The notes beneath the pieces are model-generated. The model was not told the DNA's origin, made no database searches, and saw only the letters and a list, made by a program, of their open reading frames with translations. From assembly GCF_018362975.1 (NCBI RefSeq), contig NZ_CP074371.1, forward strand, positions 2,294,001-2,358,000: DNA of 64,000 bases, read 5' to 3'. The position numbers were made by a program, and so were the translations under genes. Shown piece by piece: positions 15,970-59,847 of this stretch; position 1 is the first letter of the stretch, and every line of letters begins with the position of its first letter. This DNA comes from Nocardia tengchongensis. GTDB taxonomy: Bacteria > Actinomycetota > Actinomycetes > Mycobacteriales > Mycobacteriaceae.

Positions 15970-16641
15970 ATGAACGTTCGCAAGACGATGGCGCGGGCCG
16001 CCGGGATCGGCGCCGTCGCCACCGCCGCCCTGGGCCTGTTCTCGACCGGTGCGGCCAATGCCGACACCTTCATTCCGCTGCCGGGCGGCTCCATCACCGA
16101 GACCATGGACGACGGCACCGTCGTGACCATCTCGATGACCGGCGAATCGGCCAACATCAACCCGTCGATGGGCGCCACTCCGCTGCACCGCAATGCCTGG
16201 GTTTCGGGCAGCGCGCAGGTGCAGCTGTCGGGCACCAACGGCAATGTCGGCGGCAAGATCGTCCCCGGTTACGTGGTCGGCTGCCAGGTCAACATCTCCG
16301 GCGGCGGCGCCAACGGCGGCCCGAGCGCGGGCGCCAACTACGACGGCACCAGCCCGTCGGCCGGTGCGAATGTCGGCGGCAACCTGACCCTGGGTCCGGG
16401 CCAGTCGCAGGCGTTCTACGTCCTCGATCAGGAAGCGCCGGACGATTTCGGCAGCGAGGCGCACTACAAGCGCAACAAGTTCTCGGGTAACTCCGGTTCG
16501 GTGACGTGGTCCGACGAGACCATCAACCTGAACGGCTGCGGCGGCTACGCGCAGGCGCGTTCCTTCATCGCGGTTCAGGTCGAGACCGACCATGTGATCA
16601 CCGCCTACACGCTGTGGGGTCAGCCCTTCAGTCTCGGCTGA
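15970..16641 (+). CDS. MspA-family porin, NfpA/NfpB-type subunit 2
   Basis: The 223-residue protein carries a signal peptide ending ANA and a mature start DTFIPLPGGSI. The MspA-like body includes MGATPLHRNAWVSGSAQV, with the usual GNLTLGPGQ and GCGGYAQAR motifs. It follows the first porin by 64 bases and is terminated by a strong hairpin, so the two are one transcription unit. It belongs to the second sequence type in this locus (with the porin at 17685), consistent with the two halves of an NfpAB-like channel. Confidence 0.92.
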   Translation: MNVRKTMARAAGIGAVATAALGLFSTGAANADTFIPLPGGSITETMDDGTVVTISMTGESANINPSMGATPLHRNAWVSGSAQVQLSGTNGNVGGKIVPGYVVGCQVNISGGGANGGPSAGANYDGTSPSAGANVGGNLTLGPGQSQAFYVLDQEAPDDFGSEAHYKRNKFSGNSGSVTWSDETINLNGCGGYAQARSFIAVQVETDHVITAYTLWGQPFSLG

Positions 16642-16665
16642 TCAGTTTCCGCTCAGCGGAATCCC

Positions 16666-16698
16666 AAGGGGCCCGGTGCGATTAGCACCGGGCCCCTT
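16666..16698 (+). terminator. Terminator after porin pair 1
   Basis: A perfect 14-bp stem (16666-16679 with 16685-16698), loop GATTA, followed by TT: a canonical intrinsic terminator 25 bases after the stop of the second porin. The following 240 bases up to 16940 contain no gene and should hold the promoter of the second porin pair. Confidence 0.9.
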
Positions 16699-16940
16699 TT
16701 GCTATCCGCGACTTTCTCGGGATACCTGCGGGTTTGTGTGGGCGAGTGACCGATCCTGTTCGCTCACGTCTCAGAGGTCACAGCTGTGATGTAAAGTGCC
16801 CTGCGTCGCTACGTGAAAAGAATTTGTAACGAGTAACACAGTGGCAACAATGTGGCGACAAACTCAACCGGGGATTCGCAAGAGTCCCATTTCAACCTCG
16901 GTGGTCGAGGTTGACCGCAAGAAACCTGATGAGGGGAAGT

Positions 16941-17621
16941 ATGAGCGAGAAGCGCTCCCACGGTCTGCGTACCGCGGCCCGTTTCGCGGGCATCGGCGCG
17001 GCTGCGGCCGTGGCCATCGGCCTTTTTTCCACTGGTGCCGCTAATGCCGACACCTTCGTGCCGTTGCCGGACGGCCAGAAGGTGAACCCGGCGGGCACCG
17101 TCACCATCACTCGGACGGGTGAACACGCCATCGTGTCGCCGTCGCTCGCTGCCAACGGTGCCGGCCGTACGGTGTGGGTGAGCGGCGCCGCCTCCGCGGT
17201 TGTCACCGAAACCCCGGACGGCACAGTCGGTCCCAACAACGGCCCGGCCGGCATCCCCGGCTCGAACGCCTCGTCCACCCACGGCTCGTCGCAGATCAAC
17301 ACCGGCTACATCGTCGGCTGCCAGATCTCCATCGGTGAGGATGCGATCTCCGCCGGCGTCTCCGGCAGCATCAACCTCGACAGCGCGAACATCGGTGGCT
17401 CGATCGGCGTCAACCTCGGCCCCGGCCAGGTGGCGTTCGTGCAGATCGACTTCAAGGACATCACCAAGGCGGGCACCTACTCGGTCGAGTACCGCGACGC
17501 CGAGATCCAGATTCAGGGCTGCGCGGGCTACGCCCAGGCGCGTGCGTACACGGTTGTCGAGGTCATCGGCGACCACTACTCGAAGACCACCCTCTACGGC
17601 CAGCCGTTCAGCATCGGCTAA
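16941..17621 (+). CDS. MspA-family porin, type-1 subunit of the second pair
   Basis: The 226-residue protein starts MSEKRSHGLRTAARFAG (GAGGGGAAG upstream) with a signal peptide ending ANA and mature start DTFVPLPDGQKVNPAG. It is a close paralogue of the porin at 15231, sharing GTVGPNNGP, VNLGPGQV and the last 20 residues almost exactly. With the gene at 17685 it forms a duplicated NfpAB-like pair with its own upstream region. Two conserved cysteines are present. Confidence 0.92.
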   Translation: MSEKRSHGLRTAARFAGIGAAAAVAIGLFSTGAANADTFVPLPDGQKVNPAGTVTITRTGEHAIVSPSLAANGAGRTVWVSGAASAVVTETPDGTVGPNNGPAGIPGSNASSTHGSSQINTGYIVGCQISIGEDAISAGVSGSINLDSANIGGSIGVNLGPGQVAFVQIDFKDITKAGTYSVEYRDAEIQIQGCAGYAQARAYTVVEVIGDHYSKTTLYGQPFSIG

Positions 17622-17684
17622 GTGGTCACAGCCCGCCAAATCCTTTCTCGCGCAAGCGAATCAAAACCTGAGGGACAATCAGAA

Positions 17685-18365
17685 ATGAACATCCGTAAGA
17701 CCGCGGTGCGGGTGGCCGGTGTAGGTGCCGTCGCCGCCGCAGCCCTTGGCCTGTTCTCCACCGGTGCGGCCAACGCCGATACCTTCGTGCCGCTGCCGGG
17801 CGGCGAAATCACCCAGACCCTGTCCGACGGCACCGTGGTGACGGTGAAGCTGGTCGGCGAGTCCGCCAACATCAGCCCGTCGATGGGCGCCACCCCCGTG
17901 CACCGCAACGCCTGGGTCTCGGCCTCGGCGCAGGTCCACATCGACGGTGACACCACCGCCACCGGCGGCAACATCTACCCCGGCTACGTCGTGGGTTGCC
18001 AGGTCACCATCGACGGCGGCAACGTCAGCGGTGGCGCGACCGGCGGTGCGAGCTGGGACAGCAGTGGCAACGCCACCCCGACGGGCGGCGTCACCTCCGG
18101 CGCCAACCTGACCCTGGGTCCGGGCCAGGCCAAGTCGTTCTACGTCCTGGACCGCGAAATGCCGGACGACTACGGCCGCGAAATCCACAAGACCAAGAAC
18201 AAGTTCAACGGCTCCGACGGTTCGGTGACCTGGTCCGACGAGACCATCGGCCTGAACGGCTGCGGCGGCTACGCCCAGGCGCGTGCCTTCGTGAACGTCG
18301 AGGTCGAGACCGACAACGTGATCAGCTGGATCACCCTGTGGGGCCAGCCCTTCAGCATCGGCTGA
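17685..18365 (+). CDS. MspA-family porin, type-2 subunit of the second pair
   Basis: The 226-residue protein starts MNIRKTAVRVAGVGAVAAAA and is a close paralogue of the porin at 15970: MGATPVHRNAWVSASAQV, LTLGPGQAKSFYVLDREMPD, SDETIGLNGCGGYAQARAF. It lies 63 bases after its partner, the same spacing as in the first pair (64), which indicates that the whole two-gene unit was duplicated. It ends before a strong terminator. Confidence 0.92.
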   Translation: MNIRKTAVRVAGVGAVAAAALGLFSTGAANADTFVPLPGGEITQTLSDGTVVTVKLVGESANISPSMGATPVHRNAWVSASAQVHIDGDTTATGGNIYPGYVVGCQVTIDGGNVSGGATGGASWDSSGNATPTGGVTSGANLTLGPGQAKSFYVLDREMPDDYGREIHKTKNKFNGSDGSVTWSDETIGLNGCGGYAQARAFVNVEVETDNVISWITLWGQPFSIG

Positions 18366-43063: not shown

Positions 43064-44046
43064 CCGACGCCGATCCCGTGCGGTCACCCGCGGCGTGGCG
43101 TGGCGCGGACTTCACCGATTCCGCCGAATGGGCGACAGTCCTCACCGACACCCAGCGCGACGAGATCGCCGCCGCCGCCCGCACGGCCGCCGCCGCCGGC
43201 CTGACCGCCGGAACCCTGCGCCGCGACGACTTCCCGCTCCCGGGACTGGCTGAGCTGCTTCATGATTGGGCATTCACGCTGTCCCAGGGCCGCGCTTTCG
43301 TCCTCATCCGCCGGTTCCCCATCGACCTGCTCGCCGCCGCCGAAACCGAACTCGCCTATGTCGGACTCGGTCTGCACCTGGGCACTCCGGTCAGTCAGAA
43401 TGCGGCCGGTGATCTTCTCGGCCACGTCCGCGACGAGCGAGTTCCGCGTACGGGTCCCGCCGTCCGCCTCTACACCACCAACGAGCGTCAGGACTTCCAC
43501 ACCGACGGCTCCGACCTGGTCGGACTGCTGTGCCTCGAGACCGCGAGATCCGGTGGCGAGAGCCGCATCGCCAGCTCCCTCGCCGTCTACAACCACATTC
43601 TCGGCCACCGCCCCGACCTCATCGACGTTCTGCGTCAGCCCTTCCACTGGGACCGCAACGATGAGCAATCAACCGGTGAGACACCGTATTTCACGCTCCC
43701 GGCCATCCACGACATCGACGGCACACCCCGGATCTTCTACATCGGCTGGTACATCCGAGATGCCCAACGTCATCCCGGCGTCCCGCCCCTGACGGCCCAG
43801 CAGCTCGAAGCCATGCGCATGCTGGAGGACACCGCCAACGACCCGGCCTTCTATCTCCCCATGGAATTCGCGCCCGGCGACGTTCAAATCCTCAACAACG
43901 CCAAGATCCTTCACAGTCGCGAGGCATACACCGACCACGAAGACCCAGCCCGTCGCCGCCACCTGCTGCGCCTCTGGCTCACCGCCCATGCGTTCGCCAC
44001 CGTCGAAGACTTCCTCCGCGAGGGCATTCCACGCCGCCAGGATTGA
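43060..44046 (+). CDS. TauD/TfdA-family Fe(II)/2-oxoglutarate dioxygenase
   Basis: The 328-residue protein has the double-stranded beta-helix of TauD-type oxygenases: YTTNERQDFHTDGSDLVGLL with the HxD metal pair, and the distal His in NNAKILHSREAYTD followed by RRRHLLRLWL with the 2-oxoglutarate-binding Arg. It is closest to the taurine/clavaminate synthase-like group. ATG 43060 overlaps the corrected arsC stop by four bases, so it belongs to the arsenic operon. The substrate is unknown; an organoarsenical or an amino-acid-like compound can be guessed only from context. Confidence 0.85.
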   Translation: MTDADPVRSPAAWRGADFTDSAEWATVLTDTQRDEIAAAARTAAAAGLTAGTLRRDDFPLPGLAELLHDWAFTLSQGRAFVLIRRFPIDLLAAAETELAYVGLGLHLGTPVSQNAAGDLLGHVRDERVPRTGPAVRLYTTNERQDFHTDGSDLVGLLCLETARSGGESRIASSLAVYNHILGHRPDLIDVLRQPFHWDRNDEQSTGETPYFTLPAIHDIDGTPRIFYIGWYIRDAQRHPGVPPLTAQQLEAMRMLEDTANDPAFYLPMEFAPGDVQILNNAKILHSREAYTDHEDPARRRHLLRLWLTAHAFATVEDFLREGIPRRQD

Positions 44047-44054
44047 AAAGCAAA

Positions 44055-44081
44055 GGGCCGGTCCGCTGTACGGACCGGCCC
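44055..44081 (+). terminator. Terminator of the arsenic operon
   Basis: A perfect 11-bp stem GGGCCGGTCCG (44055-44065) with its complement (44071-44081), 8 bases after the dioxygenase stop and just before the convergent stop at 44095. Confidence 0.88.
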
Positions 44082-44094
44082 GTTTGCGTGCGAG

Positions 44095-44457
44095 CTACGG
44101 GTTGTAGATCTCGACGTAGGCGTTCGTCGCCACGGCGAAGACGCCGGGACCCATCCCGGTACAACCCGTCGACACCCGTTCACCCGACGGCGTGAAGGGG
44201 TAGCTGAGCACCTTGTACGACCCGACGGCGTACAACGGGAACGGTCCGCTCGCGTAGAGGCCGACGCAGTCCAGGTGGAGCACATAGTTCGAGCCACCGT
44301 CGGGCGCGCACACCGCCGACGCGTCGAATATTCCCTTCGTCACGCTGCAGTCCTGCGGCGCGGCCTGTGCGCTGCCGGATCCGATTATGGCGACGAATCC
44401 CAGTCCCGTAATGCTCGCGGCCGCAACTCGCGCGACAACACCCAAAGACCTTCTCAT
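44095..44457 (-). CDS. Small secreted hypothetical protein
   Basis: The 120-residue protein has a signal peptide (VVARVAAASITGLGFVAIIG, cleavage near AQA). The mature domain of about 85 residues has four cysteines (DCSVTKG, AVCAPDG, LDCVGLY, TGCTGMG) that could form two disulfides, and ends YVEIYNP. No known family is recognised. It is convergent with the arsenic operon; 44458-44737 is a non-coding, moderately AT-rich divergent promoter region. Confidence 0.75.
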   Translation of the reverse strand: MRRSLGVVARVAAASITGLGFVAIIGSGSAQAAPQDCSVTKGIFDASAVCAPDGGSNYVLHLDCVGLYASGPFPLYAVGSYKVLSYPFTPSGERVSTGCTGMGPGVFAVATNAYVEIYNP

Positions 44458-44737
44458 GACACCCCTTCAGTTCGAGTTGCATGCAGAGCTACGAATCGAG
44501 ACGTTCCGATGACTATCGGGCAGACATCCCACTTTGTTGCGTCCGCGGTGTGGGATCGCCACGCAAATCCACCCGGATTCGGCCGCTGACCAGCCGAAAC
44601 TTTTCACAATAAAAATCTGTGGACCTACCCGAAATCATAGTTTCACAGCGGAACGGCATTGTCCTACAGTTCTGCCGTCGAGTCGGCCGCGCGCGAGTCG
44701 ACGGTCCGATCAACCGCATTGCGTCCGAAGGATTTCA

Positions 44738-45349
44738 ATGACACACCGAGCAACTCAGCGTGGCATCACTGCCGGCGCCGCGACCGCCGTCGCCGCTGCG
44801 GCGCTGACTCTGCTGAGCACCGGCGCGGCCCACGCCGCCCCCGACTCCGTCACCTGGACCGACCGCGTTGCGACCGTCACCCGCACGGTCAGCGACGCCA
44901 CGCCGAAGGCCGGCGACACCATCACGGTCACCACCAAGTTCGAGCGCAGCACCAACCCTGATCTGCAGCTCAACTGGCTCAAGGACTTTCACGACGCCTG
45001 CCTGACCTACGTCATGGACTCGGCCAAGGTCAGCGACGGGATCACCGAGCGCGGCGTCGAGCCCTACCTCGAGATCAAGCCCGGCTTCGTCGCGGGTGAT
45101 TTCATGGCTACCAGCGTCCCCGTGTACGTCAAGGTCGGCGCCCCCGTGACCTTCACCGCCCGGTACACCGTCGGCGCGAGCTGCAACCGCGGCACCCCGC
45201 TCTCGAGCGGCACGTCCTATCGAGGTTCGCTCGGCACCGGCGATTACAACAGCTACGGCCCGTTCATCACTGTCGCCAAGGACAGCGACGGTGGCGGCGT
45301 CTCCACCGGCAGCCTCGGCTCGCTGCTCGGTACCGGTTCCAGCAAGTAG
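44738..45349 (+). CDS. Secreted immunoglobulin-like protein, short paralogue
   Basis: The 203-residue protein (GAAGGA upstream of ATG 44738) has a signal peptide ending AHA and a beta-rich domain: VTWTDRVATVTRTVSDATPK, ITVTTKFERS, LNWLKDFHDACLTYVMDSAK, FVAGDFMATSVPVYVKVG. It is clearly homologous to the first 190 mature residues of the protein encoded at 47515-48423. Both end in the same short motif (GSLGSLLG). Two cysteines (DACLTYV, GASCNRG) are conserved between them. The fold looks like a bacterial DUF11/Ig-type domain; function unknown. It precedes the GH5 gene by 34 bases and may be co-transcribed. Confidence 0.82.
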   Translation: MTHRATQRGITAGAATAVAAAALTLLSTGAAHAAPDSVTWTDRVATVTRTVSDATPKAGDTITVTTKFERSTNPDLQLNWLKDFHDACLTYVMDSAKVSDGITERGVEPYLEIKPGFVAGDFMATSVPVYVKVGAPVTFTARYTVGASCNRGTPLSSGTSYRGSLGTGDYNSYGPFITVAKDSDGGGVSTGSLGSLLGTGSSK

Positions 45350-45383
45350 CACGCGGCTATCAACCTTCGGATGAGGAACTCGA

Positions 45384-47324
45384 ATGACGTTGACTGAAAA
45401 CCGTTTCCGGCGGTGGCCATGGTGGGAGGCGCTGTCAGCGTTCACCGTTGTCTCCGCGATGCTGCTGGCCTTGGGAGTGCATTTCGCCGCCACCAGCGAA
45501 GCCTTGCCCTGCCTGTTCTCCGGATCCGCCGGTTGCTCCGGTTCAGGGGGATCGGATCTGAAAGGCCCGCTGAGTACCCGCGGGCGCTATATCGTCGACG
45601 CGAACGGGAACCGGGTCAAGCTGCAATCCGGAAACTGGCACGGCTCCAGCGGCACCTGGACCGGCAGCGGCGATGACGAGGACCCGGCCAACAATGCGGG
45701 AGGCGAGATCGGGCATCGAGCGCCCCTGGGCCTGGACCGCGTCCCGATGGACAAGATCGTCAAGGACTTCAAAGCGCTGGGGCTGAACAGCATTCGGCTG
45801 CCGTTCTCGAACGAGATGATCTCCGACACCCGACCGGTGGTGGGTCTGACCGCCAATCCCTCGCTCAATGGTCTCAAGCCGCTCGAGGTGTACGACCGGG
45901 CGGTCAAGGCGCTGACCGACGCCGGGCTCGGCGTCATCCTCAACAACCACACCACCACCACGAAGTGGTGCTGCTCGAACGACGGCAACGAGTTCTGGAA
46001 TTCGGGCCAGGACACCGGCAAATGGGTGGACGACTGGGCGTTCATGGCCGCCCGCTACAAGGGCAACCCGGGTGTCATCGGCGCGGATCTGCGCAACGAG
46101 ATCCGACGCACCACCTGGAACGACCCCAACTGGGGCTGGGGCGACAACCAGGACTGGGAGGCCGCCGCCCACCAGGCCGGTGATCGAATCCTGACCACCG
46201 CCAACCCGAATCTGCTCGTCATCATCGAGGGCCTGAACTGGACCGGCATCCCCTCGGACCTGTTCCCGCACGAACGGCCCATGCTGAAGCCGGTCGCCGG
46301 ACTGAGCGAGACGCTGACGCGCTCCCACAAGCTCGTGTACAGCGCGCACTTCTACGGCTACATCGGCCCGAACCACACCGGCGCGACCGGTCTGGGCGAA
46401 ACCCACGACACCCGGTTCCGCGAAATGTCGCGCGATGACCTGTTCAAGTCGATGGACGAGCTGGCCGGCTACGTCGCCACCACCCCCGACAAGACTTTCA
46501 CCGCACCGGTGTGGGTCAGCGAATTCGGTGTCGGCACCCAGGGCAGCGACCAGGACAAGGCCTGGTTCTCGAACATGGTCGACTACCTGATCGCCCGCGA
46601 CCTGGAGTGGGCGTATTGGCCGATCGTCGGCTTCCAGCAGCCGAACAACCCTCAAGCCGATAACTGGGGACTGCTGCGCTACGCCGCCGACGGCAACCTG
46701 AAAAGCGTGACCGACAGCGGTGATTGGCGCGGTGTGCACTTCCGTCGCCTGCTGGACGCCGCCGGGAAGACCGGTCAGGTCGCACCCGTCCGCACCTGGT
46801 CCATGCTCTACGGCATCCACGAAGACCGGAACGAGTCCCTGCGGGCCGGCAACGACTGGGATCCCGGCGCACGAAAAATGGTCTGCCCCGACGACCAGCG
46901 CATGATCGGTATCAGTGACCGTGGTCAAGGCGGCCTGTGCACGGATACGAACGAGGGCGACCTGTGGCGGCCGGGCACCCAGGCGAACACGGTGAACACG
47001 GAGAAGGTGGACACCGACTGGGCGAGCGGCTTCACCAAATACCAGTGCCAGACCGGTCAATTCATGATCGGTTACAGCCTCCACGGCGACGGTATGTCCG
47101 CCATCCTCTGCGCCCCCGCCCGCATCTCCCTCGCCGGCGCCGGCCGAACCCTCTGGATCGACAAGGGCGACAACCGCCCCGCCTCGGGTGAGGGCGGCGA
47201 CTTCGCCCCCGGCTACTACAAGGGCCAGTGCAACTCCGACGAGTACGCAGCCGGTATCGCCTTCTCCTGGGCCAACCTCCGCTACGGCCACCCGGACGCC
47301 CTCTACTGCCGCAAGCTGAAGTAG
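45384..47324 (+). CDS. Secreted or membrane-anchored GH5 glycoside hydrolase
   Basis: The 646-residue protein has an N-terminal anchor (ALSAFTVVSAMLLALGVHFA) and a GH5 (cellulase-type) TIM barrel from residue ~60 to ~480. Motifs: LGLNSIRLPFSNEM, acid/base Glu in GADLRNEIRR, YSAHFYGYIGP, and nucleophile Glu in PVWVSEFGVGTQG. A further C-terminal domain of about 150 residues with several cysteines (KMVCPDDQRMIGISDRGQGG, KYQCQTGQFMIGYSLHGDGM, KGQCNSDEYAAGIAFSW) shows internal repeats of a C-x-x-x-x-x-GI/GY pattern and may bind carbohydrate. It probably hydrolyses a beta-glucan or mannan outside the cell. Confidence 0.92.
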   Translation: MTLTENRFRRWPWWEALSAFTVVSAMLLALGVHFAATSEALPCLFSGSAGCSGSGGSDLKGPLSTRGRYIVDANGNRVKLQSGNWHGSSGTWTGSGDDEDPANNAGGEIGHRAPLGLDRVPMDKIVKDFKALGLNSIRLPFSNEMISDTRPVVGLTANPSLNGLKPLEVYDRAVKALTDAGLGVILNNHTTTTKWCCSNDGNEFWNSGQDTGKWVDDWAFMAARYKGNPGVIGADLRNEIRRTTWNDPNWGWGDNQDWEAAAHQAGDRILTTANPNLLVIIEGLNWTGIPSDLFPHERPMLKPVAGLSETLTRSHKLVYSAHFYGYIGPNHTGATGLGETHDTRFREMSRDDLFKSMDELAGYVATTPDKTFTAPVWVSEFGVGTQGSDQDKAWFSNMVDYLIARDLEWAYWPIVGFQQPNNPQADNWGLLRYAADGNLKSVTDSGDWRGVHFRRLLDAAGKTGQVAPVRTWSMLYGIHEDRNESLRAGNDWDPGARKMVCPDDQRMIGISDRGQGGLCTDTNEGDLWRPGTQANTVNTEKVDTDWASGFTKYQCQTGQFMIGYSLHGDGMSAILCAPARISLAGAGRTLWIDKGDNRPASGEGGDFAPGYYKGQCNSDEYAAGIAFSWANLRYGHPDALYCRKLK

Positions 47325-49818: not shown

Positions 49819-50124
49819 GTGGCACCGCCCAAGAAGTACCCGGATGCGCTGCGGGCGCACGCCGTCCGGCTGTATCGCGAGTCCGATCCCAAGCCGACCT
49901 TCCGTGCGATGGCCGCCGACCTCGGCGTGCACCATGAAGCGCTCCGCCTCTGGATCAGGCAGGCGGAAAGCGAAGCGGTCGTGGTCGAATCGGGCCACTG
50001 CGCAAGCGTGTCCGAGGAAAACAAGCGTCTCCGCAAACGCATAGCGGACTTCGAACGGGTAATAGCGACACGGCGTGACTCCCGCCCGATCCGCGCGGCG
50101 ATGTGCGACCGAATGCCGCTGTAG
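49819..50124 (+). pseudogene. IS3-family transposase OrfA remnant
   Basis: The first ~75 residues (PKKYPDALRAHAVRLYRESD, DLGVHHEALRLWIRQAESEA, EENKRLRKR) are a clear IS3 OrfA helix-turn-helix and the start of its leucine zipper. After RLRKRIADFERV the sequence leaves the family, and no OrfB (rve integrase) follows. The element is therefore a decayed fragment that marks past transposition at the edge of the accessory region. Confidence 0.75.
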
Positions 50125-50286
50125 CGAACAACAATTTCCGGTTGTCGGTCGATCGAAAAGAATGATTTCTCTTCGAACCCGTTCCTGGATACCGTCATCG
50201 GTGTGAGTTGAAGGGCTCACATTCACACCGCATCCGGGCCCGACGTTCCGATCGGGCCCGGCACGCCCCTGTCGACGAGGCAGTCC

Positions 50287-50694
50287 TCAGGGCAGGGTTT
50301 GCAAAGTGCCCTCGGACTTGTAGGTGATGTCACGCTCTCCGGCACTGTCGCATTCCCACAGCACCAGCGTGTTAGGCGGGAACTGCAGATCGACAGACGC
50401 CACCCACGGCACCGAGTCCAACATCGCGGACCCCGTCGAGACTCGACTCTTACTCACCTGCGCCGTCTGAGATGCAGGCGGAACAATACTCATACCCTTG
50501 CAAGTCCACGCCGACCCGTCTGCGGGAGCATCGACATGGATCACACCGTGCGGCATCAGCGTGATCCTCGGCGGCTGCGGCGCCGGCGACATCCCACTAC
50601 CCGAACTCGCGGCAAACCCCGTCCCCGAACCGGAAACCCCCAACGACGCCAGCGCCGCCGCCAACAGTCCCACCCGAAAAACATTCCGTACCAA
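50287..50694 (-). CDS. Small secreted hypothetical protein
   Basis: The 135-residue protein has a signal peptide (VGLLAAALASLGVSGSGTGF, cleavage near FAA), a proline-rich linker and a mature domain with two cysteines (AWTCKGMSIVP, LWECDSAGERD) that could form one disulfide. It resembles the other short secreted proteins of this window (44095, 56823) in size and layout, not clearly in sequence. Function unknown. Confidence 0.7.
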   Translation of the reverse strand: MVRNVFRVGLLAAALASLGVSGSGTGFAASSGSGMSPAPQPPRITLMPHGVIHVDAPADGSAWTCKGMSIVPPASQTAQVSKSRVSTGSAMLDSVPWVASVDLQFPPNTLVLWECDSAGERDITYKSEGTLQTLP

Positions 50695-50970
50695 AACAAC
50701 TCCCCATTCAGATCCATCACGCTGAACACGGCGTGCGGCAGCAATGTACCCGATCCCGAATCACCGGCCCCATATCGATTACCTCACCGCTGCCATATCA
50801 GGCTCCGTTGGTCGGAGGCCGTGCGGAGAATGACCGCCTTCTCGCCGAGGCGGGCGTCGAAAGGGTCATGCTCCGAGCTCTCGACCATCCCGAGCACCCA
50901 CAACGGCGCGCCGCTGCGAGCGTCGCGGACACTACTTCCAACCAGATGCCGGCCGCGTAGGGTCTGGATC

Positions 50971-51510
50971 GTGAAGCGTGCGACGCAGTGGAACATCCTC
51001 GGTGAGCGACTGGTCGACGAGAATCGGCATATTCGACTCTCGACTGTCGACGTCGAGCTGCCGGATGGTGTCCGGTTCACTCAGTATGTGGCGCGGATGC
51101 CGCGGTGCGCGATGACGTTGGTGCTCAACGAGAACCGTGAGGTGCTGTTGATGTACCGGCATCGGTTCATCATCGATCAATGGGTGTGGGAACTGCCGGG
51201 CGGTTACGTCGACCACGCCGAGGATGTCGCGGTCGCGGCGGCGCGGGAGGTGGAAGAGGAAACCGGGTGGCGGCCACGCACGATGGAACACCTCGTGACG
51301 TATCAGCCGTCGATCGGTACCTTGGATCAGCCACAGGAGATCTACCTGGCTCGAGGCGCGGACCTGACCGACACCGCACCCGACATCAATGAGGCCGAGG
51401 ACATTCGGTGGATTCCTCTCGACGCGGCTGCGGCCATGATCGATCGGGGCGAGATCGTCGGCGCAGCAACGGTAGTCGGGATCGATCGGGCGCTCAGCCT
51501 CGCCGGGTGA
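50971..51510 (+). CDS. Nudix hydrolase
   Basis: The 179-residue protein starts at GTG 50971 and has a complete Nudix box (GX5EX7REUXEEXGU) beginning GGYVDHAEDVAVAAAREVEE. Flanking regions (MTLVLNENREVLLMYRHRFI, EDIRWIPLDAA) resemble ADP-ribose/nucleotide-sugar pyrophosphatases. The substrate is not determined. It is convergent with, and overlaps by 17 bases, the HTH/TPR-type regulator gene, a pairing seen in other actinobacteria from memory. Confidence 0.88.
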   Translation: MKRATQWNILGERLVDENRHIRLSTVDVELPDGVRFTQYVARMPRCAMTLVLNENREVLLMYRHRFIIDQWVWELPGGYVDHAEDVAVAAAREVEEETGWRPRTMEHLVTYQPSIGTLDQPQEIYLARGADLTDTAPDINEAEDIRWIPLDAAAAMIDRGEIVGAATVVGIDRALSLAG

Positions 51511-52860
51511 GTTCGAGGACTTGCTGTCGGAAGTCGGCGACCTCCGTCAAGTCGTTGAAGGGCCGGAGTCGGTAGCGCAGGTCTCGCAGGTAGGACAGGC
51601 TGCGGCGGGAGGCGAGGTCGGTGGCGATATCGAGCGCGCTGAGGCCGATACGAACCGCTTCACGTGGGTCGGTGGAGGACAAAGCGGACGCGAGCAGGCT
51701 CAGATCGAACGCGCGTCCGCGTTGGTATCCGACCGACATGGTGAGTGACCGTTCTGCGAAATGCGCTGTACGTGTGTGATCGCCGAGTTCTCGGAAGCAG
51801 TGAGCGGTTTTCGCTGAGATGTACGGCTGATCGAAGTAGGCGAGCCACACCGGCTGTTCGCCGGGTTCGGCACGATCGAAGGCGCGTTCTGCGGCAGCAA
51901 GCGCTGTGGTGCAGGATGTTTGATCCTGGCGGGCAGCGTGACCGTGGGCTTCGACCATATGGCATTCGGATTCGAGGGCGGCCAAGCCGGCGGCGCGGGC
52001 GGCGATCCGTGCGGCGCGGGCCAGGTCGATGGCGTCGCCGGGACGGCCGACATAGGTGGCCTGATGGCTCATGGCGGCCATGATTTCCGCGCTGAGTGCG
52101 CCGTCACTGGCGGCACGGGCCAGTCGGAGGGCCTGGATCAGGTAGCGCTGGGCGAGACCATGATCTTCCTGGTCGTAGGCGGCCCAGCCGGCGAGGCGTA
52201 CGAGTTCGGCTGTCGAGCCGAACAATTGGCGGCCGATGTGTTCGTTGAAGCTGCCACGCAGCAGCGGCGCGACCGAGCTGTGCAGGTATTGCACGATCGT
52301 CGATCGGACCTTGCCGCCGCCGACCTTGTTGTCGAGATCTCGGAAAGCTGTTGCCATGGATTGCACCGCGTCGACGTCGATCTGCCCTACCCTCCGTGAC
52401 GTGCCATCGATACCGGATGTTCGGGGCCTGGCAGTGTCAGCCACCGCATGGATGCAGCCGGGTATACCGCGACTGCGTACGAGGTGTCCTGCAGGAACCT
52501 CCGATGCTCGACATCGTTGCGCCACAGAGCTGTAGAGGCATCGACTGCGTCGGAGAGGCTGAGCGAGAATTCGAGGCCGATTTCCGCGGTCGCAGTCGGC
52601 GGGTTGGTCATGCCGCACATTGCCGGTGTGATTGTGCGACCGAGCAATTCGGTCAGTGTGTCGGCGATCAGTCCGGGCACTGGTGGTTGGGGTTGTTCGC
52701 CCGCGAGCCAGCGGCCGACCGAGCTGTGGTCGTAGCAGAGCTCGAGCCCGAGGCTCCGTCCTCGGTCGACGATGCGCCGCGCCAGTGCCTTGCGCACTCC
52801 GCCGGTCTCCTCGACCAGCTCTTCGAACTGCCGATTCGGTTGTTTTGCACGGCGTCCCAT
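51494..52860 (-). CDS. HTH regulator with TPR-like C-terminal domain, frameshifted near 52388
   Basis: From ATG 52860 the protein reads MGRRAKQPNRQFEELVEETG with an XRE-type helix-turn-helix (LCYDHSSVGRWLAGEQPQPP). It is cut at MARHGG-stop near 52387. The other frame carries GQIDVDAVQSMATAFRDLDN and a helical TPR-like domain (AAYDQEDHGLAQRYLIQALR, ALSAEIMAAMSHQATYVGRP) to residue ~455. One G missing from GGAGGG explains the break. The layout is that of a large actinobacterial (Streptomyces/Nocardia) regulator family often linked to secondary metabolism or phosphohydrolases; its target is unknown, possibly the Nudix gene. Confidence 0.8.
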
Positions 52861-53022
52861 AGTCCGCAGTGTGACATCGGGAAATGCCTGCGCGCTATGA
52901 ATCGGTAAGCGTGCACGCCCCCTGTGCACACACCCGCCCGCCCTGCGCGTCTACCGATGACTGCCGGCTGTGCGGTGAACTGGCGTTATCAAACGACCGC
53001 CGAGTACCGAGAGCTGCCAACC

Positions 53023-53199
53023 ATGGACATCCTTCTCGCCATCATGCTCGTCTCGTCACTGGTCTTCGCCGCCGCTACGGCCGGCCGCATCCTGCTGGCG
53101 GATGAGGAGATCGCGCCGCGGCTTACCGTTGCCGACATCCAAGCGCGGCTGGCTGCGGAGCCGCCCTGTACCTACGTTCCGATCAGCCGCGGGCGGTGA
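53023..53199 (+). CDS. Small membrane protein, first of a three-gene set
   Basis: The 58-residue product reads MDILLAIMLVSSLVFAAATA, a single membrane helix, then a short polar tail (DIQARLAAEPPCTYVPISRG). The frame is open from 52924 but ATG 53023 gives a natural membrane protein. It lies 3 bases before the winged-helix gene. Function unknown. Confidence 0.5.
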   Translation: MDILLAIMLVSSLVFAAATAGRILLADEEIAPRLTVADIQARLAAEPPCTYVPISRGR

Positions 53200-53202
53200 G
53201 CG

Positions 53203-53460
53203 ATGGCATTCACCGAAGCGGAGGCGAAAGTGCTGGGCGCTCTGGCGATCCTGGATGTGGATGACGCCTTGACCGTGCGCCAGCTCTGCCGAGCGACCGG
53301 ACTGCCCGACACCTCCATCCACCGCGCACTGATGAGACTGTCGCGCACCGGGCTGGCGATGGGCACGGTGCAGGGCCCCGCACGCTGGCGCTGTACCGAC
53401 CGTGGACGGCGCGCGATCGCGCGGCCGGTCTATCGCGACTATGTCGGAGCGCAGTCATGA
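53203..53460 (+). CDS. Small winged-helix protein
   Basis: The 85-residue protein is a compact winged helix: VLGALAILDVDDALTVRQLC, RATGLPDTSIHRALMRLSRT, ARWRCTDRGRRAIA. It is probably DNA-binding, a small regulator. Its stop overlaps the next start (ATGA), so the two are translated together. Confidence 0.75.
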   Translation: MAFTEAEAKVLGALAILDVDDALTVRQLCRATGLPDTSIHRALMRLSRTGLAMGTVQGPARWRCTDRGRRAIARPVYRDYVGAQS

Positions 53461-53804
53461 CGAACTACGTGATCGGGTTTCTCCGTCGCGACGTCTCGGG
53501 CGACCGGTGGCAAGGAGACCAAGCCCGGATCCATGCATTCGCTGAGCAGTGCGAGTGGAGCGTGACCCTCGTCTACTACGGCGTCCCGGACCGCCCGGGT
53601 GCTGTCATCAATCGCCTGATGAATCTCGCCTACGCCGAATATGCCAACGAGATCGTTGCGCCGAGCGCAAACCACTTCGAGCCCGGCGATATACCGGCGC
53701 TGGTCAAGATCGCAGACGTGATCTGTGTGGACACGGGCACGAGATACACCACAGCCACTGGCGACCCGACGGGGCTACAAGCTTCCCACCGCGTCGCGGA
53801 GTGA
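53457..53804 (+). CDS. Hypothetical protein with resolvase-like N-terminus
   Basis: The 115-residue protein begins MTNYVIGFLRRDVSGDRWQG and continues DQARIHAFAEQCEWSVTLVY, PGAVINRLMNLAYAEYANEI. The pattern recalls the N-terminal domain of serine recombinases (GYxRxS..Q..), but the catalytic Ser environment is changed (RRDVSG) and no DNA-binding domain follows. It may be a degenerate resolvase fold kept for regulation. Coupled to the winged-helix gene. Confidence 0.65.
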   Translation: MTNYVIGFLRRDVSGDRWQGDQARIHAFAEQCEWSVTLVYYGVPDRPGAVINRLMNLAYAEYANEIVAPSANHFEPGDIPALVKIADVICVDTGTRYTTATGDPTGLQASHRVAE

Positions 53805-53832
53805 CTCGAGTAGGACCGCTCGTGTCCTGGTG

Positions 53833-55838
53833 CTATTCCGTCGGCGGGCTATCGCTGACAACTGCCTCGGATTGCGCCGATGTGGCTTGTTTCGGGGCTG
53901 GGGCCACCCATACGCGCAACGGTTGCACCACTGATCCGTAGAACGCGTCGGCTGCGGAGGTGATGCTGCTGATGAAGCTTGCAGCGGTGCCGGAACGCCT
54001 GTTGCCCATGGGAAATACTTGTTCGAGGGTGAAGGACACGATGTCGCCGGAGCGGCCTTCGGTGAGTACTTTCGGGTTGTCGCGGACTACCTGGAGGTGT
54101 TCGCAGGTCTCGTTGCCGTCCGTTGAGAAGGCTGCTTCGAGTTGAACCTGGCCGGGGGCGTCCGGGAGTTGCTTGAGTAGCCAGGAGAGCCGTCGTGCGT
54201 TGGTGCCTTCGGCCGGTGCGGTAACCGTTGTGCGGCAGCGGATTTTATTGGTACGGATGTCTGCGACCACGACCAGGTCGCCGGCGGTGTCCGGGATCTG
54301 CAGTACTGCCTCGAAGGCGCCGTCGGCGGCCAGGCGCTCCGCCACGGCTGCGTTGCGGGCGGCGGGCTCGGAGCGGAAGCGGCGGGGGAGGACGTGTTTG
54401 ACGGTCACTCCAAGTTCGGCGGTGAACCGCAGGGCGAGGTGGCGGGAAAGAGATACCCATCTGTCGGCGACCGATACGGCCTTCTGGTCGCTGGCGCGCA
54501 GGGTTCCGGCGGTGACGCCGTCGCGCACCGCCACCCAATGCCGCCCCATGTCGGTGAATTCGGTGGCGCCTGACCTCGGGTGATCGAGATAGCGGAGGAA
54601 CTCGTTCAGGATCCACGCCTGCAGTTCGTCCTCGATGCCACCGTGCGACAACAGCATTCGCGCTTCGTGCGCGATTTCCGCCCACGACAGATGCCGCAAC
54701 GCGACTTTGGCCAGCTTGCGGCGATCGACCTCGACCGGCAGCTCGCCGGCGCTCGCGGGTACGTCGTTGGACAGGCTGACCACGACGTCGTACTTCTTCT
54801 TGCGGGCCACATCCAGGTAGCTCTCGAGCTGTTCGCGCTTCAGCTTGCCGGTGCCGGTCTTGACCTCGAGTAGCGCGGTCCAAACGCGGCTTCCGCGAAT
54901 CACTTTGAGCACTGCGTCAGGGATGACCTTGGAGTCGCCGCGGTCATACTGCACCTCGATATAGCCCTCGAATAGGCCAACCGGCGCCGCACATCCGCGA
55001 GCAGAGTGCCCGCGCGAACGGGCGCACCGCCTGCATGGTCGCGATCAGCGCCGAGGTCGCACGCCGCTCCTGCTCGTCACCGGCCCCGACTCCGACGACG
55101 GAAAAACAGCCGAGCCGGTTGCCAGGCATCGGACTCCGCGAGCTTGAACTCGATCGGCTTCGCCTTCTTGACCGGCTTCTTCGCGGTGCGAACGCCACTA
55201 TTGGCCCGCTCGCGCGAAGCACTCGATGCACCGGATTCTTCCCGCGTCTCTGTAGCTTCTCCCGCTGCAACAGCAGCGCCGGCCGGTTCCGTCTCGGCGT
55301 CATCGTCGACCACGACACCGAAATCCGTTGCCAGCCCAGCCAGCCCGGAATCCCAGCCCTGCCCGATCGCCCTGACCTTCCACACACCTGCCCGGCGATA
55401 CACCTCGCCGAACTGAAAGGCCGACTCGGTGGTGGCATCGGCGGTGATGTACTCGGCCAGCAACTGTCCCGCGCCATCGACGATCCGGAACGCTATCTTC
55501 CCGACCTCGCCGAAGGTTCCGCTGCCGACGCTACCGGCCAGCGCGACCGCGTGAACGGTGTCGGGCACCGCAGTCAGATCGATGGCGATACGCGTCTGCG
55601 CACCGTCCTCGGTCGCGCTCGCACCCAGGAACCGCACCGAGCCATCGGGCGATTCGGGCTGGTTGTAGAAGATGAAATCCCGGTCGCCGCTTACCTTTCC
55701 GTCCGCATCCAGTAGCAGCGCGGAGGGATCGATGGCGACCTCGGTTTCCGTCCAACCGATCACAACGTCGATACGTTCCACATCCTCCGGCAGCGATAGG
55801 TTCTGCCCTTTGGAAAGCATCGACGAAACCACAGTCAT
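53833..55838 (-). CDS. TerD domain fused to a PD-(D/E)XK-like nuclease region, two frameshifts
   Basis: From ATG 55838 (MTVVSSMLSKGQNLSLPEDV) the protein has a complete TerD domain (IDPSALLLDADGKVSGDRDF, DTVHAVALAGSVGSGTFGEV), an Ala/Glu-rich linker and the block KAKPIEFKLAESDAWQPARL. There one extra T in TTTTTCC near 55105 shifts the frame; coding continues VVGVGAGDEQERRATSALIA, then shifts again near 54990 and continues LFEGYIEVQYDRGDSKVIPD. The next part, PDAVLKV...WTALLEVKTGTG, has the D-ExK-Q pattern of restriction-type nucleases (residues ~300-350). A helical domain of about 330 residues follows. Corrected length about 668. TerD proteins bind Ca2+ and belong to chemical-stress and phage-response systems; this fused form occurs in actinobacteria by memory. 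Confidence 0.78.
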
Positions 55839-56023
55839 CCCTTCTACAGCCCACTCCGCGTCGCCCCCAGCCTCGGACTCGGCACACGAAGGGGTAGCGC
55901 GCCATCGATGCTGCCCGAGCCGCCACTCCCAGGCGACGACGATTCAGACCGCTGGCACGATAGGTCAGAAGACAGTCACATCCCAGCTACACCAGCGGTC
56001 TGTTCCGGGCCCGCCGCTTCATG

Positions 56024-56524
56024 TCAGCTCGCGGTTCGCCGGCGATGTTTGGCCACGTGGACTCGGGTCGAGCATTGGGTGGTGCAGAAGCGGCGCTTGC
56101 CGTTTCGGGAGGTGTCGACGAAGACGGTGTCGCATCCGTCGCGGGCGCAGCGGCCGATGCGGGTCGGGGCCTCGCAGAACAATGTCGCGAGACCGAATGC
56201 GGTGTAGGCCTTCACACGTTCGTCCACCGGGGCTGTTTCTTCGGAGTAATGCAGGTGTGGGGCGCGGCCGTCGTGAATCGAAATGTATGGGCGGCCAGTG
56301 GTTTTGGCCAGCAGTACGTTGAGCCGATCGACCGAGGGATCGCGGAACACCGCATCGAGTTCGCGTATCCACCGCCGCAACTCGGCATCCTGGCGTGCAT
56401 CGATCACGCCGATCGGCTTGTAGCCGATCTCGGCGAGCAGGCGTCCAAGGTCCTCGTCCGGTGCCGCGTTCACCAGTCGGACGGCCAGCTCGGCGGCCAC
56501 ACCACCGTAAGGGTTGAAGTGCAC
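56024..56524 (-). CDS. CGNR zinc-finger (ABATE-domain) protein
   Basis: The 166-residue protein has an N-terminal ABATE-like helical domain (AAELAVRLVNAAPDEDLGRL, DAELRRWIRELDAVFRDPSV). It ends in a CGNR zinc finger: RCARDGCDTVFVDTSRNGKR with cysteines continued in RFCTTQCSTRVHVAKHR. The N of the CGNR signature is replaced within VDTSRNGK, as usual. These proteins are stress-induced putative RNA/DNA-binding regulators. GTG 56524 is the start; no clear ribosome-binding site precedes it, so a leaderless transcript is possible. Confidence 0.88.
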   Translation of the reverse strand: MHFNPYGGVAAELAVRLVNAAPDEDLGRLLAEIGYKPIGVIDARQDAELRRWIRELDAVFRDPSVDRLNVLLAKTTGRPYISIHDGRAPHLHYSEETAPVDERVKAYTAFGLATLFCEAPTRIGRCARDGCDTVFVDTSRNGKRRFCTTQCSTRVHVAKHRRRTAS

Positions 56525-56549
56525 TGAACCATTACATCAAGGTGAAGGC

Positions 56550-56720
56550 ATGTGCGCCACCTGCCCCGAATGTTCCTGGCCGACACCCACTGTCGTCTCC
56601 GCCCACGGCAGCGTCCGCTATCTCCGCTGCGTATGCGGCAAATGGTTGGTCGAGTCCCACGGCGTGATGCTGGCAACCGCCGGCACCAGCGCGTTCGCGA
56701 ATCAGAACACCTCACCATGA
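56550..56720 (+). CDS. Very small zinc-ribbon-like protein
   Basis: From ATG 56550 (GTGAAGGC just upstream) the 56-residue product reads MCATCPECSWPTPTVVSAHG with two cysteine pairs, CPEC and LRCVCGKW, arranged as a rubredoxin/zinc-ribbon knuckle. It is divergent from the CGNR gene, 25 bases apart. Small size makes it uncertain, but the regular cysteine spacing argues for a real protein. Confidence 0.55.
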   Translation: MCATCPECSWPTPTVVSAHGSVRYLRCVCGKWLVESHGVMLATAGTSAFANQNTSP

Positions 56721-56763
56721 CAACGGCTGACGCTGCGAGCCGATGGACCCCGCGAAACGCAGA

Positions 56764-56797
56764 ACCGCCCGTGATCTCTGCCGAGGTCACGGGCGGT
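56764..56797. terminator. Bidirectional terminator
   Basis: An 11-bp stem ACCGCCCGTGA (56764-56774) with its complement (56787-56797) lies between the convergent zinc-ribbon gene and the secreted gene ending at 56823. Confidence 0.75.
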
Positions 56798-56822
56798 CCT
56801 TCGTGTTGATTGCGGGCGGGTA

Positions 56823-57146
56823 CTACCTGGCCGCGACCGCCGACCAGCCGTAATAGGTAGCGGACGTGCCCGCCGCCACGGTCGCAACAGGGTCACCGCT
56901 GCAGTCCTTCGACGCGAACACCAGGAAGTCACGCGAGCTTCGATTCTCGAACCGGATATCGCGCGGGAACCCGCTGGCCCAGCACGAGTCCAGATCGCTG
57001 AGTTCCAGCGTCCCGTCAACAAGCACCACCTGCCGCCCATCCCCGGCACCGAACGACCCAGTAGGCAGCGCCGAAGCAACCGGCGCACCGAGACTGACCA
57101 CCGCAATAGCGAGAGAGCTTATGGCAGAACGCATTACAAAAGTCAT
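56823..57146 (-). CDS. Small secreted hypothetical protein
   Basis: The 107-residue protein (MTFVMRSAISSLAIAVVSLG) has a signal peptide ending ASALP. Its short mature domain has two cysteines (DSCWASGFP, SKDCSGDPV) and ends TYYGWSAVAAR. It resembles short actinobacterial secreted proteins with one disulfide. ATG 57134 is an alternative start. Function unknown. Confidence 0.7.
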   Translation of the reverse strand: MTFVMRSAISSLAIAVVSLGAPVASALPTGSFGAGDGRQVVLVDGTLELSDLDSCWASGFPRDIRFENRSSRDFLVFASKDCSGDPVATVAAGTSATYYGWSAVAAR

Positions 57147-57307
57147 CCGATGATGGTATCGCCCACCCCAACCCAAGCCCTCCCGGGTGCTGCGCACCAC
57201 GTGGGGTGCCCGGCTGCGGCAGCGAGCGGTTGCTGACCGCCGCAAACGAGAGGCCAAGGGGTCTCGGTGCGAACCCGTCTGTCGGTGCAGCTCGCTACCG
57301 TTGAGGA

Positions 57308-58684
57308 ATGGGGTTGGATGGCCGTGTTGATCGTTCATTTGTGGCTGAGATTGCCGAGGCTGCTAGGGGTTTCGAGTGGGTATGGACGCGGTTTGGTGTT
57401 GAGGGGTTTTGTGTCCAGGCGGGGGATGGTGTTCGAGTTTCGGGCACCGATGATCGGGTGGACTACATCGTGGTGACGGTCGCACAGGCGAGCGGTCTGG
57501 ACGAGGCCGATGATCGAGCGTCGCTGCCGGTCGCTTATTTTGAGGTGAACACCGAGCTGTGGAAGCTGTGGGACGCGCCGACCGGTGTGCGAGTAGCTGG
57601 GGAGATTGGTGCGAGTTGGACCTTTCCGAACGTCGTCGTCGGAGTGGTAGCCGCCGCGCGGTCCGTCGAGTTGTGGCTGATCAATCCAGCCGAGCAGATG
57701 CGCTTGGCTGACATCGAACGGTGGGCGATCGTGGAGTTCACTACCTCGGTGGAATGGACCGACACGGTCGCCGCTGTCGCGGTGCTTGCGCAGATCGATC
57801 CGGGCGGCTGGACGCGTACGGATGTGGACCGCGTCTTTCATGCGGTCGGGTGGGGGCGCGAGGAGGAGAACGACGAGTCGGGGACGGCCAAGGGCGGATC
57901 CGGCACTGCGTCCCTCCACGCCTTTCGCGCCTCGGACTATCAGCGCCGTTACGGCTACGGCGAGTTCGAGGGCATGTGGCTGACGGCAGATTTGCCCGAG
58001 GAAGTCTTGGACCTGGCGTATTCGGATCTATTGGCCGAATGCGTTCGAATACTCGGCACGCCGTCGTATGTGGGCGGCCCCAAAGCGTTCGCTACCTGGC
58101 GACGGGATACGACGACGCTGACCCTGTCCCGGAGTGCGCTGTTGGGGGTCGAAGTGGATCTCTACCCGACCGAGGCCAAGGAGAACGAGGAGTATTCCAA
58201 CGCCAAGTGGGACGAGTGCTGGGAACCGTCGGATCTGTGGCGGATCCGCCCGGACCGTACCTCCAGCCGCGCTGATCTCGACGGAATGTGGTTCCCGTCG
58301 GATCGGAAGGTCACCGACTGGGAGTCCTTCGATCGAAATGTGCAGCGGCTCTTCACTTCACTCGCGGCCGACATGCCGGTACTCCATCCCCACGCGACCT
58401 CGATCATCTGGGTCATCGTTTCGGCGGACGAGCAGATACTCGCCGCGCAAGGCTGGTTCGAAGCCACGCGCAGCCGGGTGGAGACCAAGAACGGTGACGA
58501 GCTCGAGTTTCGAGACTTTCCGCCCGGCCCTGCTGCTGCCGAGGAGATCGTGAAGCTCACCCAGGCGGCGGTGCGGACGGTTGCCGAGACTCCGGACGGA
58601 TTGCGGTACTACGCGTTCGCTCCCTCCACACCACAGGCGTTGATGGACTTCCGGCTCGGCCTCGCCGACAGCGTCAACAGGTAG
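57308..58684 (+). CDS. Orphan 458-residue hypothetical protein
   Basis: ATG 57308 begins MGLDGRVDRSFVAEIAEAAR. The protein is cytoplasmic, Trp- and Asp-rich, without signal or membrane segments. The first half includes FEWVWTRFGVEGF and a substrate-free beta region; the middle has TRTDVDRVFHAVGWGREEEN; the last third has WEPSDLWRIRPDRTSSRADL. The middle motif recalls DUF6301-type proteins of actinobacteria, often found near secreted toxins, but this is a weak memory-based link. GC and codon choice look lower than in the conserved core genes (more T-ending codons). Function unknown. Confidence 0.75.
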   Translation: MGLDGRVDRSFVAEIAEAARGFEWVWTRFGVEGFCVQAGDGVRVSGTDDRVDYIVVTVAQASGLDEADDRASLPVAYFEVNTELWKLWDAPTGVRVAGEIGASWTFPNVVVGVVAAARSVELWLINPAEQMRLADIERWAIVEFTTSVEWTDTVAAVAVLAQIDPGGWTRTDVDRVFHAVGWGREEENDESGTAKGGSGTASLHAFRASDYQRRYGYGEFEGMWLTADLPEEVLDLAYSDLLAECVRILGTPSYVGGPKAFATWRRDTTTLTLSRSALLGVEVDLYPTEAKENEEYSNAKWDECWEPSDLWRIRPDRTSSRADLDGMWFPSDRKVTDWESFDRNVQRLFTSLAADMPVLHPHATSIIWVIVSADEQILAAQGWFEATRSRVETKNGDELEFRDFPPGPAAAEEIVKLTQAAVRTVAETPDGLRYYAFAPSTPQALMDFRLGLADSVNR

Positions 58685-58711: not shown

Positions 58712-58746
58712 AAAGGGCCCGATCCTCTGTGAGGATCGGGCCCTTT
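58712..58746 (+). terminator. Terminator between the orphan gene and tRNA-Ala
   Basis: A perfect 16-bp stem (58712-58727 with 58731-58746) and three-base loop, 28 bases after the stop. It could also end tRNA transcription from the other strand. Confidence 0.9.
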
Positions 58747-58751
58747 GATTG

Positions 58752-58824
58752 TGGAGCTAAGGGGAATCGAACCCCTGACCTTCTCGATGCGAACGAGACG
58801 CGCTACCAACTGCGCTATAGCCCC
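58752..58824 (-). tRNA. tRNA-Ala(CGC)
   Basis: The 73-base minus-strand sequence folds as a cloverleaf: acceptor GGGGCTA with TAGCTCC, D-arm GCGC-AGTTGGTA-GCGC, anticodon loop TTCGCAT giving anticodon CGC, and T-loop TTCGAAT. The G3-U70 pair in the acceptor stem is the alanine identity element. The CCA end is not encoded. Confidence 0.93.
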
Positions 58825-58921
58825 GCGTTGATCGTTTCCGATCCGCGCTCGGAGAACTTTAGCAGGTGGGATGGGGAGTCGACGAATCGGCTGGTTGGGG
58901 GTGGTTTTCTAGGATGGGTGG

Positions 58922-59847
58922 GTGGACATGAGCGGGCATTCTCGGGTGGGGGCGTGGGAGGGGCCGGTGCGGAGGACGCTGGCCGGGTCGGGGCGGCCGG
59001 AGTTGGGGTGGGCGGAGCTGCGGTTGCTGGGGGAGGGGCAGGACAGTGTGGCGGTGTCCGCGGTGGATGGGAGCGGGCGGTATGTGGTGCGGATGCCGAA
59101 GGGGGCGGACGGGGCGGTGGGGGTGCGGGTGGAGGCGCGGCTGTTGCCGGAGTTGCGGGTGGGGGTGGCGATACCGCGGTTCCTGTTCACGGCGCCGAAT
59201 CCGCTCGGCCGGGGGAGTGCTGCGTGTATCCGGAGGTGCCGGGGGAGGTGTTGAGCGCGGACGAGTGGCGGCGGCGCGGGTTGTCGCGGCGGGCGGAGAC
59301 GGCGCGGACCGTGGCGGAATTCGTGGACGCCGTGCACGCGTTTCCAGTGGGGCGCGCGCGGGAAGTGGAAGTGGCGGAGTGGGATACGCGACGGGAATTC
59401 GCGAGCGATCTGGAGTTGGTTCGAGCACAGGTGATTCCGTTGCTGCCGGCGGCGGACGGGCGGCGGCTCCTGGATTTGTGGGATGAATTTCTGTCCACCG
59501 ACCGGAATTTCGAATACGAGCCGATGCTGATTCACGCCGATGTGAGCGTCGACCATCTGCTCGTCACCGGCGACCGCATCACCGGGGTGATCGATTTCGG
59601 TGACGTCCGGATCGGCGACCCCGACTACGACCTGTGTTACCTGTGGACCGGGGCCGGGCCCGAATTTGTTCGACAGGTGCAGGAATTCCGCGGGCAGCCG
59701 TTCGACGACCGGCTCATCGCCAAACTCCGATTCTGGGAGCGATCCGACCGCGCCATCGACATCCTGCACGCCATCGAACACCGCCTCCCGGACTTCCGGG
59801 ACGAGAGCGTGCACGCACTGCGCGCCACCCTGGCCGGGCCGGACTAG
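58922..59847 (+). CDS. Aminoglycoside/kinase-like phosphotransferase, frameshifted near 59213
   Basis: The protein starts at GTG 58922 (AGGA upstream), reads MDMSGHSRVGAWEGPVRRTL and has the APH/choline-kinase fold: nucleotide region LGEGQDSVAVSAVDGSGRYV, catalytic loop MLIHADVSVDHLLV (H-x-D), and metal-binding GVIDFGDVRIGDPDYDLCY. The frame breaks after PNPLGRG in a GGGGG run at 59211-59215; adding one G joins it to ECCVYPEVPGEVLSADEWRR. Corrected length about 308. The true substrate is unknown; resistance should not be assumed. It overlaps the convergent TetR gene by four bases. Confidence 0.83.

Follow-up and report, generated by a model that had tools for sequence, protein, structure and literature searches.

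A TerD domain joined to a predicted PD-(D/E)XK nuclease in an interrupted gene of Nocardia tengchongensis

TerD proteins (PF02342) are represented by the solved structures 3ibz and 2kxt/2kxv, and to our knowledge their biochemical function is still open. The title of a 2012 paper by Anantharaman et al. on Ter-dependent systems reportedly names DNA-processing. Papers that followed it regard TerD as a candidate sensor, either of ligands or of nucleotide derivatives (PMC7824862, PMC7159879), and an excerpt of PMC10250203 ties Ter domains to phage defence, with TerB in Shango as an example. Here we analysed a stretch of 64,000 nucleotides of Nocardia tengchongensis (contig NZ_CP074371.1, positions 2,294,001–2,358,000; hereafter the window), in which a gene on the minus strand (53833–55838) encodes a TerD domain followed by a predicted nuclease. 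On balance, we favour the view that this gene is an interrupted copy of a conserved three-domain protein, whose most likely role would be that of a DNA nuclease deployed conditionally, as part of the TerD stress response, on damaged or incoming DNA.

Architecture of the TerD–nuclease protein

In intact relatives, the protein consists of a TerD domain, a basic linker, a predicted PD-(D/E)XK nuclease and a domain resembling YbjN and type III secretion (T3S) chaperones. In the window, three segments of this family lie each in its own frame, giving two frame changes, and the pieces of 253 and 373 amino acids were searched separately rather than as one joined protein. At 13 of 14 named loci, TerD and the homologue of the 373-amino-acid piece share a single open reading frame (ORF), and at the remaining locus (L033) the TerD part is absent. 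The six nearest proteins among the matches listed, all named Nocardia tengchongensis, are unbroken (661–667 amino acids), with identities of 97–99% to the 373-amino-acid piece and 96–100% to the TerD piece. The intact relatives, the invariant catalytic residues, the Pfam nuclease matches below threshold and the fold comparison together support a single protein that combines TerD with a putative nuclease of the PD-(D/E)XK type.

A first-pass annotation made from the letters alone had pointed to a D...ExK...Q pattern of PD-(D/E)XK nucleases and had proposed fold prediction as a check, and both bear out the assignment. The P-D, E, K and Q of the PD...ExK...Q signature do not vary in any of the 257 family proteins aligned, an uneven sample in which 241 are the members of two best-hit lists together with the query; in the R. 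opacus protein the E and K are residues 337 and 339. An AlphaFold model with a predicted local distance difference test (pLDDT) score of 85.1 resembles PD-(D/E)XK nucleases by fold comparison, its predicted core having the catalytic residues in place. Against a viral structure library, three matches fell below E 0.001, only one of them, to a PD-(D/E)XK protein, with high probability and modest fit (probability 1.00, TMt 0.52). The predicted domain has the motif order and fold of the restriction-endonuclease-like proteins AF1548, FokI, Card1, EcoT38I and MspJI, but no Pfam nuclease family reaches its cut-off: the Rhodococcus opacus module scores 12.6 bits with VRR_NUC (cut-off 23.8) and 12.8 with Tox-REase-7 (cut-off 25), and the window piece likewise stays below with 12.9 and 13.6 bits. 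A TnsA-like Pfam model, judged by E-values only, gave 0.0072 at best. Scanned at E 0.1, the 373-amino-acid ORF as such drew no match from Pfam, NCBIfam or PADLOC.

The N-terminal domain scores 150.9 bits with PF02342 (cut-off 25.3) and aligns over 170 residues with the solved TerD structures. It differs from the TerD family in that the canonical acidic loop GDNxTGxGxGDDE is missing, that the gene is solitary and that a nuclease and one more domain follow in the same chain. The loop, which we take to be Ca2+-binding, is carried by none of 127 fusions by a strict pattern and by one by a loose pattern; among 15 TerD matches found in this genome, eight were read, one of them the window's own, and five of the other seven have the loop. 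The proposal of a Ca2+-binding TerD domain is thus supported as regards TerD but not as regards Ca2+ binding, and Ca2+ control of the fusion is doubtful because the acidic loop is missing from all 127 fusions under the strict pattern. Elsewhere in the same genome, another TerD protein without the loop (L005, G000:C1:2245558-2246055) combines TerD, a middle part rich in proline and glutamine, and one more domain, TerD-like by eye, in an open frame of 520 amino acids.

The C-terminal tail, first described as a large helical domain of unknown fold, is predicted otherwise: a model of the R. opacus C-terminal domain (pLDDT 90.9) is alpha/beta and appears to resemble YbjN and T3S chaperones in fold, the 'TY-chaperones' of a passage in PMC9503650. 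The tail differs from these proteins in being part of a nuclease protein and in having no sequence match in Pfam, as no YbjN or TY-chaperone model was found at E 1 among 53 family members. Families of the YbjN/T3S-chaperone type share little sequence, according to an excerpt of PMC5398634.

Frame changes and family history

Since 13 of the 14 named loci carry a single ORF and the six N. tengchongensis proteins are unbroken, the breaks are specific to this sequence and not a trait of the family. The first-pass annotation had assembled one protein by correcting two one-base shifts; the two frame changes and the single-ORF relatives agree with it, and as to the cause, a sequence error appears likelier than a real break, because six close relatives are unbroken and a neighbouring NsdA-type regulator gene (51494–52929, minus strand) is also split. 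This neighbour covers positions 2–144 of NF053720 in one ORF and 130–432 in another, in a different frame. Weighing against sequence error are damaged family copies elsewhere (L033, G028) and the ratio of second- to third-codon-position changes, which at 0.209 (11 pairs) is slightly higher for the window piece than for the others (0.180 over 55 pairs; 0.153–0.203 by member). These points, together with the two changes of frame that the sequence shows, would suit a true pseudogene in the N. tengchongensis strain of the window, to which we give a fairly low probability; the intact state of the six nearest relatives and the retained catalytic residues speak against it, as does the split NsdA-type gene, which a sequence error would predict. 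A codon-frame hidden Markov model of the window gave many same-strand switches in which overlapping genes and errors are indistinguishable, and it was not counted as evidence.

Of 60 genomes searched, 17 have a match to the 373-amino-acid piece, including this genome and 11 of 35 other congeners. Across the phylum, 18 of 396 sampled genomes, again counting this one, have a match to the unit of nuclease plus tail. The unit also occurs without TerD. The gene caller recovered it at 19 of 20 loci fetched for context, nine with TerD and ten without, and the twentieth (L062, the same gene as L022) is a TerD fusion by eye. With an unfused query, 5565 of 8000 scored candidates fell below E 0.001, and the 120 listed contain no Pfam domain; with a fused query 6950 of 8000 passed, not all of which need be fusions, because TerD alone can bring a protein into the count. 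A tree of 37 rows places all 15 fusions on one side of a single branch and all 22 unfused proteins on the other (support 99/92), although the tree is unrooted and contains long branches that meet. Judged from these sequences, one fusion (or one split) followed by long retention would fit best. A phage origin was rejected: no family match was found in 50,697 phage records, and none of 19 pattern matches in viral contigs was a relative. On plasmids, the gene was found in 11 of 72,556 records, five from Rhodococcus and six from Streptomyces.

Table 1. Features of the TerD–nuclease gene, its surroundings in the window and related plasmid loci
Feature	Position	Strand	Basis or remark
TerD-bearing ORF, 253 amino acids	55077-55838	minus	TerD = residues 7-173
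TerD domain	55320-55820	minus	PF02342 E 3.5e-44; aligns with 3ibz and 2kxt
Lys/Arg-rich linker, TerD to nuclease	55164-55190	minus	GVRT-[AVSTQ]-[KRQ] pattern in 114/121 fusions
Second-frame segment: start of predicted nuclease domain, helix with E-x-Q-E-R	~54992-55105	minus	letters identical to intact relatives, frame differs
C-terminal ORF, 373 amino acids, third frame	53833-54954	minus	predicted nuclease core and tail in one frame
Predicted PD-(D/E)XK core, third frame	54574-54954	minus	signature invariant in 257/257 proteins; fold
Catalytic-signature residues	D 54916-54918, E 54865-54867, K 54859-54861, Q 54829-54831	minus	alignment
YbjN/T3S-chaperone-like domain	53899-54558	minus	frame of nuclease core; R. 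opacus domain model and fold comparison
CGNR protein	56024-56524		zf-CGNR E 1.3e-15
Winged-helix protein	53203-53460		TrmB E 4.3e-6, weak
'Resolvase-like' ORF	53457-53804		no Pfam or NCBIfam match at E 0.1
tRNA-Ala	58751-58824	minus
Type II CBASS sets with NucC-type DUF6602 effector, two Rhodococcus plasmid lineages	L080:2882-6739; L079:12375-16226
Two-gene unit directly upstream of TerD–nuclease gene, pLP337 and pR8L1	L080:6790-9128; L084:6722-9060		weak LeoA, BnzB matches

Genomic surroundings

Next to the gene, the CGNR protein noted at first was recovered; of the small helix-turn-helix and resolvase-like genes, the winged helix holds with a weak match and the resolvase-like assignment found no match (Table 1). 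A conserved operon partner was rejected, as the most widespread of the protein clusters listed, the family itself aside, is limited to at most 8 of 35 loci, one of which is that of the window. A shared upstream motif was rejected as well, any one 7-mer being common to at most 9 of 22 upstream stretches. Insertion linked to transfer RNA (tRNA) was likewise rejected: a tRNA lies in 4 of 24 fusion loci and in 3 of 14 unrelated stretches, so the gene shows no link to one. Further along the window, the ORF at 58729–59847 covers only positions 65–230 of the APH profile and its start overlaps the opposite-strand tRNA-Ala, so that this gene too appears interrupted. The guanine-plus-cytosine fraction is 0.63–0.65 over 50001–58000, against mostly 0.66–0.72 in the rest of the window, where 44001–46000 (0.641) and 16001–18000 (0.654) are also low.

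The surroundings were read for ten of the 11 plasmid carriers. On pLP337, a type II set of the cyclic-oligonucleotide-based antiphage signalling system (CBASS), consisting of a cyclase, E1-E2, JAB and a DUF6602 protein that matches NucC (E 5.1e-84), lies upstream of the TerD–nuclease gene, and a SIR2 gene of the candidate system PDC-S65 lies beyond it. On pRZP3, the same set is found downstream, with proteins 49–75% identical to those of pLP337; PADLOC was run on the pLP337 set. The surroundings of pRWAY02 are common with pRZP3, and both count as one lineage. pR8L1 has a RES-family gene and shares with pLP337 the two genes upstream, which are 87% and 86% identical between the two plasmids. This two-gene unit was rejected as an obligate partner because its second gene is present on ten Rhodococcus plasmids, eight of them outside the carrier list.

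No PADLOC model matches the TerD–nuclease protein at E 0.1. For 139 neighbours at 24 genome-assembly loci, 34 PADLOC families were matched, each with no more than two members, and without a control scan enrichment can be neither claimed nor denied; PD-T4-6 models, each with a single member, make up most of the 25 families shown. The 55 neighbours on six Streptomyces plasmids matched six PADLOC families, one member each.

Proposed function and alternatives

In the function we favour, the TerD domain would sense a ligand or partner related to stress, rather than Ca2+ bound by the canonical loop, and would then license or place the nuclease. The nuclease would be metal-dependent and cut nucleic acid, most likely DNA; the basic linker may contact DNA, and the tail would dimerise or hold a protein partner. 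A DNA-cleaving role triggered by stress or phage may apply, and a part in defence is possible: known defence genes adjoin the gene on Rhodococcus plasmids, but few occur among the neighbours at the 24 genome-assembly loci.

A nuclease of DNA repair or chromosome maintenance, in which TerD and the tail would serve recruitment and which would have no part in defence, is fairly unlikely. The unfused unit occurs across actinobacteria, where it often bears the name stress response protein, and a passage in PMC3575483 describes DR1245, a YbjN-fold protein, as binding DdrB. However, the unit has matches in only 18 of the 396 sampled genomes, and because it is absent from most of them it is not a core repair enzyme. 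A single-gene defence effector, in which TerD detects infection or plasmid entry and frees the nuclease on phage, plasmid or its own DNA, would suit the patchy occurrence within the genus, in 11 of 35 other congeners. The absence of conserved neighbours, the plasmid-borne copies, the type II CBASS genes that adjoin it on pLP337 and pRZP3, a NucC-type effector among them, the PDC-S65 SIR2 gene on pLP337 and the tie of Ter domains to phage defence point the same way. Nevertheless, we consider this rather unlikely, as no PADLOC model matches the protein, neither neighbour set contains a PADLOC family of more than two members, and every CBASS set already has its own effector.

The substrate and the switch leave room for two further readings. 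Card1-type enzymes, which act on single strands, RNA included, are among the fold matches, and the substrate cannot be read from the fold by itself; an RNA rather than a DNA nuclease is nevertheless very improbable, since most of the named nuclease fold matches are DNA restriction enzymes. It is also improbable, though slightly less so, that TerD is a ligand sensor which directly switches the nuclease, making the protein a single-chain equivalent of Card1 or NucC, which would respond to an alarm signal of nucleotide type, maybe the same signal as that of the CBASS sets on the Rhodococcus plasmids.

A literature search on TerD with nuclease, restriction endonuclease, YbjN or Nocardia showed no publication on such a fusion, which Anantharaman et al. 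may already list. The TerD, nuclease and YbjN/T3S-chaperone-like parts are known, and their combination, as far as the sequence scans reach, met no family model here. This conserved bacterial protein family is uncharacterised, and its unit of nuclease plus tail, a family that is large in actinobacteria, stayed below every cut-off in our Pfam, NCBIfam and PADLOC scans. With TerD in one chain with a predicted nuclease whose catalytic residues are invariant among the 257 aligned proteins, TerD function becomes directly testable, and a direct ligand switch of the nuclease, if true, would assign a definite output to TerD, a domain that has long lacked an explanation.
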